Assembly (NCBI RefSeq): GCF_004363235.1
Contig: NZ_SNYW01000011.1
Span: forward strand, 124,001-188,000
Source: Dongia mobilis
Lineage (GTDB): Bacteria; Pseudomonadota; Alphaproteobacteria; Dongiales; Dongiaceae
Reading direction: 5' to 3'
Length of the DNA: 64,000 nucleotides
Each line of letters starts with the position of its first letter. Position 1 is the first letter of the stretch. Under the pieces are notes generated by a model. That model saw only the letters and a program-made list of their open reading frames with translations, had not been told where the DNA came from and made no database searches. Positions 53,817 to 54,131 of the stretch are shown here, one piece after another. The translations under genes were made by a program, and so were the position numbers.

Positions 53817-53832
53817 TGTGACCCGGATCACA
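53817..53832. promoter_or_regulatory. Perfect CRP-type palindrome
   Basis: TGTGA-CCCGGA-TCACA matches the CRP core consensus TGTGA-N6-TCACA exactly. Its centre (53824.5) lies 41.5 bp before the start point predicted from the -10-like TATGTT at 53854-53859, the class II activator position on the plus strand. CRP or another member of that family is implied; the sequence alone cannot say which. Confidence 0.7.
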
Positions 53833-53865
53833 GACGGCCGGCACGGGCGGTCCTATGTTTGCTCG

Positions 53866-53950
53866 CATGAAGCGGGGTTCACCCAACCGTCCCCATCCCC
53901 GCTTCAGATCGCGGGCGCCCGATGCCATCCCCATCGGGCGCCCGCATTCA
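53866..53950 (+). ncRNA. Candidate small RNA with two perfect hairpins
   Basis: Directly after the predicted start lies hairpin A, TGAAGCGGGG (53868-53877) pairing with CCCCGCTTCA (53897-53906). Four bases on is hairpin B, a 14-bp perfect stem (53911-53924 with 53932-53945) closing a CCATCCC loop. ATTCATT follows, a weak uridine tail. Both loops are C-rich and could pair with G-rich Shine-Dalgarno sequences (inference). No protein with a ribosome-binding site fits this stretch. The family is not one I recognise, and the 3' end is uncertain. Confidence 0.5.
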
Positions 53951-54013
53951 TTCCGGCCCCCTTCGATCCGGTCGCGACAAGCTGATCCCCGGGGCCGCAA
54001 GCCGCCAATTCGC

Positions 54014-54056: not shown

Positions 54057-54131
54057 GCCGGCATAGCACAGCGGTAGTGCAGCGGTTTTGTAAACCGAAG
54101 GTCGGGGGTTCAAATCCCTCTGCCGGCACCA
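54057..54131 (+). tRNA. tRNA-Thr (anticodon TGT)
   Basis: A 75-nt cloverleaf. Acceptor GCCGGCA pairs with TGCCGGC, discriminator A, encoded CCA; D-stem GCAC/GTGC; anticodon loop TTTGTAA (TGT); T-loop TTCAAAT. A T-run (54132-54136) follows the CCA. Confidence 0.96.

Follow-up and report, generated by a model that had tools for sequence, protein, structure and literature searches.

Positions 53817–53951 of the window (the whole 64,000-nucleotide stretch of Dongia mobilis DNA analysed here) very probably hold a genuine small RNA (sRNA) gene with a CRP-type promoter, and the sequence is best read as defining a new family of sRNAs of a familiar type, whose two loops are C-rich and whose CRP-type promoter is class II-like. 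A DNA search, a loop pattern, two covariance models (R1 and R2) and a pattern joining palindrome and loop together gave 15 copies in 11 of the 17 genomes of the family. Transcription, the activator, the base-pairing mechanism and any metabolic role are what we infer from these features. Individual genomes are denoted by labels such as G005, followed where needed by the letter of the copy (a or b).

Architecture of the locus

The arrangement of operator, −10-like element and hairpins, which is beyond chance, comprises the following features on the forward (+) strand of the window, the operator being given without strand.

53817–53832, no strand: CRP-type operator TGTGA-N6-TCACA (TGTGACCCGGATCACA, then GACG to 53836), centred at 53824.5; perfect in 15/15 copies.
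53854–53859, +: −10-like element TATGTT, its first base 29.5 nt past the operator centre.
53866–53867, +: predicted transcription start (C53866 or A53867), from the −10 spacing.
53867–53951, +: predicted small RNA of about 85 nt; it matches R1 with 113.9 bits, a model built partly from this very interval.
53868–53906, +: hairpin 1, of 10 bp with a 19-nt loop, from folding (arms TGAAGCGGGG at 53868–53877 and CCCCGCTTCA at 53897–53906); both sides changed in 7 of 10 pairs among 14 copies.
53878–53896, +: loop 1, C-rich and containing CACCCAACCGUCCCCAU; CCGUCCCCA is kept in 15/15 copies.
53911–53945, +: hairpin 2, of 14 bp with the 7-nt loop CCATCCC, a probable intrinsic terminator, from folding, covariation and the U runs of divergent copies (arms GCGGGCGCCCGATG at 53911–53924 and CATCGGGCGCCCGC at 53932–53945).
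53925–53931, +: loop 2, CCAUCCC in the RNA; CAUCCC is kept in 15/15 copies.
54057–54131, +: tRNA-Thr(UGU), the downstream neighbour in the six genomes with copy a; 1.3 kb away in G001.

The palindrome, the TATGTT hexamer and both hairpins had been reported in a preliminary description of this DNA, and direct reading of the window located each of them where it had been placed. The transcription start that it predicted at 53866 is defined less sharply: C53866 fits the spacing, and A53867 fits equally well, because the distance from the −10 element to the hairpin varies by one base among relatives. The interval folds with a z-score of −6.3 when taken as 53860–53955 and −7.8 when taken as 53866–53956, and in neither case was any of 200 shuffles as stable.

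Copies in related genomes

The DNA search covered 96 genomes and the exact loop pattern the 17 genomes of the family. All seven genomes of the window's genus are positive, with 11 copies between them and two copies in four of the genomes, the latter offering a natural example of how sibling sRNAs evolve. Elsewhere in the family, three of the four genomes of genus g4 and the one genome of g7 are positive; the family search found no copy in the five genomes of g2, g3, g5 and g6, nor in G016 of g4, a genome that is 68% complete. A strict-pattern scan of genome contigs from 84,980 species returned eight stretches, with the record titles Dongia (placed in Rhodospirillales by NCBI), Rhodospirillaceae bacterium and Proteobacteria bacterium. 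Among 385 sampled genomes of the class, model and pattern matched solely in the five of the same genus and neither detected the element in the 380 outside it, the model search here being one with R1 under strict filters, which may miss copies as diverged as that of G009.

The copies of G005 and G009 were recovered by a covariance model that lacks the palindrome, and both carry it. Those of G012, G013 and G015 were first found by a pattern that included the palindrome; R2, built without it, also scores all three, of which only G012 lies outside its training set (E 5.2e-4). Up to an E value of 1, R2 gave 31 matches, made up of the 15 copies, five matches that overlap known copies on the antisense strand and 11 weak ones (E 0.066 or more), all 11 of which were inspected and lack the palindrome. 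Antisense matches were excluded from the alignment, and a match to the palindrome-plus-loop pattern in G004 (C90), which lacks the loop-1 sequence despite having a palindrome and was not listed by R2, was dropped.

The preliminary description had made its proposal depend on conservation of the palindrome and the stems in relatives; all 15 palindromes are perfect, and the stems have undergone compensatory changes. This conservation also bears on whether the element could be a mere pair of terminators, or a dispersed palindromic repeat, beside a chance operator. Palindromic, GC-rich stems and the presence of two copies in four genomes would suit such an origin, which is nevertheless highly improbable, since each of the 11 positive genomes holds one or two copies and since the operator and both loops are kept, at near-constant spacing to the −10-like element, in 15/15 copies.

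Conserved fold of the RNA

In a 14-copy pair-counting alignment, which had been fitted to the structure of the model and is biased in its favour, both sides had changed in 10 of the 24 stem pairs and in 28 cells (5.0 and 6.5, respectively, in shuffles), and 98.1% of cells pair. None of 500 shuffles reached any of five measures, and controls in which the structure was slid along the same alignment gave at most three pairs with both sides changed. The stems of these 14 copies, as aligned to the model, therefore carry the compensatory base changes of a structured RNA. Within the 10 closest copies alone, covariation was not significant (62/500 shuffles).

Stems vary more than loops across the family. 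The first stem of G005, of 9 bp, is differently built, and those of G009, G012, G013 and G015 are largely different in sequence, with loops that are the same or nearly the same. Folded singly, the copies of G005, G009 and G012 have z-scores of −4.2, −3.4 and −3.4, weaker than that of the window; for G012, 2 of 200 shuffles were as stable, and the centroid fold of G005 is without hairpin 1. The minimum-energy folds of five single copies each contain the two main hairpins, some with small extra pairings in the 3′ flank. Sixteen nucleotides of loop 1 are the same in all 11 copies of the genus, and both loops share the core CC[A/G]UCCC; the two conserved loops point to the likely seed of the sRNA.

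Hairpin 2 is probably an intrinsic terminator, because in the five divergent copies (G005, G009, G012, G013 and G015) it is followed by 4 to 6 consecutive U; the tail after hairpin 2 in the window, AUUCAUU, is weak as a terminator U run. A small protein gene could in principle begin at the ATG at 53868, which is present in 10 of the 11 copies of the genus, but it is hardly credible: changes of 1 nt in the length of loop 1 shift the frame (G001b and G006b), the ATG is missing in G005 and substitutions preserve pairing. The frame-shifting indels exclude a coding reading of the element.

Gene surroundings

Copy a sits between a conserved gene and tRNA-Thr in 6/6 genomes; the G003 version of this conserved gene has no Pfam match and looks methyltransferase-like by eye. 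In 4/4 genomes copy b precedes msrB and shares its strand, with 131–153 nt between loop 1 and the first ATG in the msrB frame (MQ...), the msrB assignment resting on Pfam and NCBIfam for the G003 protein and on blastp to that protein for the other three. These two settings are what a cis-acting leader or attenuator of the downstream gene, driven by the same promoter, would predict, with tRNA-Thr as the partner in the window and msrB at copy b. As a general account of the element this is improbable: the downstream partner is not the same between copies, and hairpin 2 has the form of a terminator. The 1.3 kb that separates tRNA-Thr from the element in G001 means that this tRNA is not a required partner. 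In G009, G012 and G013, which belong to two other genera, the next gene, eda, is convergent with the element, which can therefore stand alone and is not a leader there. A sole role as a leader of tRNA-Thr or msrB was rejected on these convergent eda copies and the tRNA distance in G001. The dedicated RNA of about 85 nt envisaged in the preliminary description gains support from the terminator-like hairpin 2 and from the copies whose next gene points the opposite way.

The operon in G009 has the order edd-glk-eda, and in G015 the element is convergent with a flavin reductase gene, which follows eda. At the eda loci of G008 and the seven genomes of the genus, each taken as 3.6 kb, the full palindrome was not found; in four of the eight (G001, G003, G004 and G008) there is CCGTCCCC or CCATCCCC in isolation. 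A metabolic link via eda is a lead only. One might imagine a CRP-controlled carbon-state sRNA particular to the family, which would have begun beside the Entner–Doudoroff operon (edd-glk-eda) and then moved and duplicated within Dongia, one copy becoming an msrB leader. We regard this history as doubtful; if true, a single promoter–hairpin cassette would serve both in trans, as an sRNA, and in cis, as a leader.

Promoter and candidate activators

The operator, extended to TGTGA-N6-TCACAGA, is present in 15/15 copies with 12 different N6 sequences. Across six orthologous loci, identity is 100% in the half-sites, 61% in N6, 55% in the spacer and 74% in the −10 element, with 31% in the 50 bases upstream and 38% in the 20-base tail (the flank range being given as 31–52%); conservation among these six copies is concentrated in the half-sites, −10 element, stems and loops. 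Every one of the 15 copies has a −10-like hexamer at 29.5 or 30.5 nt from the centre of the operator; it conforms to TANNNT at these distances in 11 and is looser in four. The hexamer is TATGTG at 29.5 nt in G004a, TTAACT in G013 and TTTACT in G015, both at 30.5 nt, and TTTACT at 30.5 nt in G009, where TACTCT at 32.5 nt is a second candidate. Class II CRP-dependent promoters have their activator centred near −41.5; with the start predicted from the −10 spacing, the geometry here would be class II CRP-like.

The window's own genome contains eight perfect TGTGA-N6-TCACA sites versus none for a reversed control pattern. Four of the eight read TGTGAA-N4-TTCACA and four, including that of the sRNA, begin with TGTGAC; the two operator types perhaps reflect two regulators. 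A clear regulon or theme was not found among the other seven sites, using mechanical open reading frame (ORF) calls. A place near an ABC-transporter permease gene is shared by G005, G012 and G013 (matched by blastp, the permease label being assigned by eye), which is only suggestive.

Conservation of the operator allows the likely type of activator to be named. The same genome has ten matches to the cNMP-binding domain, and two CRP-like proteins were judged by eye to have CRP-type recognition helices. The first has its best match in PDB chain 3i54_A of the Crp/Fnr family (E 1.1e-38), which we take to be Mycobacterium tuberculosis Crp, the aligned helices reading TREAINK and SRETVNK, respectively. 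The recognition helix of the second is RETVNR. CRP is the best NCBIfam model for both, yet at 98.7 and 74.6 bits they fall short of the curated cut-off of 266. A perfect TGTGA-N6-TCACA lies 11–26 nt upstream of the predicted TTG start of the first gene (L109 1849–2621, on C1 of this genome), and its autoregulation is possible. A third protein, for which FnrL is the best NCBIfam model (below the cut-off), has the helix ETVSR, which we would expect to read a different site. Either of the first two, the CRP-like proteins, could be the activator of the sRNA.

Proposed mechanism and target searches

We propose that an activator of the CRP subfamily would bind TGTGA-N6-TCACA at about −41.5, a class II-like position, and help RNA polymerase to start at 53866/53867. 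Folding of the resulting RNA of about 85 nt would give two hairpins, each with a C-rich loop that displays the common core; the second would also act as terminator. The most likely partners of the loops would be G-rich sequences (GGG[G]AYGG) at the translation starts of several mRNAs, which would mostly be repressed while the activator is on, and the two loops might serve as redundant seeds. Taken alone, the base-pairing step is moderately probable.

The loop-1 complement TGGGGACGG, followed after 2–13 nt by ATG, has 80 matches in nine genomes (5 to 14 each). The reversed pattern has 17, and is only a rough control, since its ATG is reversed too. In a partial search, in which 30 of the 80 matches were made into loci, no convincing orthologous target set emerged among the 29 that were translated. 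A set spanning G001, G003 and G004 was rejected, since by eye the ORF behind the ATG in G004 looked like an antisense frame. In G006, an O-methyltransferase-like gene carries TGGGGACGG, complementary to loop 1, before its start codon; the full site is missing from the G001 orthologue. In each of these two genomes, G001 and G006, the gene (L119 and L120; the label was assigned by eye) is preceded by a CRP-type operator. Duplex energies of the four msrB leaders with both loops did not go beyond the range spanned by 65 ORF starts taken mechanically from the window; the highest, for G004b, departs from the mean by about 1.5 to 1.7 standard deviations. The target searches were partial and yielded nothing convincing, and for this reason the mechanism is put forward as a proposal.

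A genuine sRNA that works via a protein, or that titrates another RNA, instead of pairing with ribosome-binding regions, is a less likely alternative. It would account for the identity of 16 nt of loop 1 in 11/11 copies of the genus, which exceeds the need of a short seed, and for the lack of a conserved mRNA target in the limited searches; against it, the anti-Shine–Dalgarno (anti-SD) sRNAs of the alpha-r14 family use C-rich motifs in hairpin loops, according to extracts of their description (PMC10746234). The element opens CRP-type control at the post-transcriptional level to direct testing in this alphaproteobacterial branch.

Comparison with known RNAs

No family of Rfam 15 lies over the element at or above its gathering threshold, so that identity with a known Rfam RNA was rejected; the preliminary description, too, had not recognised the family. 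The best sub-threshold matches, on the same strand and over both hairpins, are FsrA (RF02273; 27.1 bits against a gathering score of 80) and Burkholderia ncS035 (RF02870; 21.7 bits against 79), and in our judgement the likeness consists in C-rich loops only. Elsewhere in the window, on the reverse strand, matches above the gathering score were obtained for terC RNA (RF03067; 42574–42631, 52.8 bits) and rpsB sRNA (RF01815; 8029–8151, 46 bits).

CyaR and other enterobacterial CRP-activated sRNAs have a CRP site upstream of the small RNA gene. CyaR belongs to another class of bacteria and was set against the Dongia RNA by way of the Rfam search alone, in which nothing matched. Among the titles listed by literature searches (in one of them 20 of 13,656), none concerns this twin-hairpin RNA, and the single paper listed for Dongia together with sRNA deals, from its title and the start of its abstract, with a Bacillus strain. 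The element supplies an sRNA family for this lineage.

The CcsR or cuckoo RNAs share the C-rich motif of the alpha-r14 sRNAs. As far as extracts of their descriptions go, this group (NfeR1 and CcsR1–4) resembles the Dongia element in being short hairpin RNAs with C-rich motifs in unpaired regions. Membership was rejected, the defining motif CCUCCUCCC being absent from 15/15 Dongia-family copies. In the alpha-r14 sRNAs, the extracts report, hairpins keep repeated C-rich anti-SD motifs unpaired, with variable stems and a constant motif, and the NfeR1 loops have been shown to pair with G-rich translation-start regions (PMC10746234). GsrN of Caulobacter is likewise described, in the part of its report used here, as pairing a C-rich loop with a G-rich mRNA leader (PMC5869019); the comparison with the Dongia RNA is by description only, and GsrN differs in belonging to the sigma-T/EcfG stress response and in activating katG translation through one loop. 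Alpha-r14 RNAs, in the same extracts, have three hairpins, each with the motif, whereas the Dongia element has two main hairpins. Its CRP-type operator further sets it apart from NfeR1, given there as controlled by LsrB/NtrC (PMC10746234), and from CcsR, which an extract of a second report places with a DUF1127 gene under RpoHI/RpoHII (PMC10253847).
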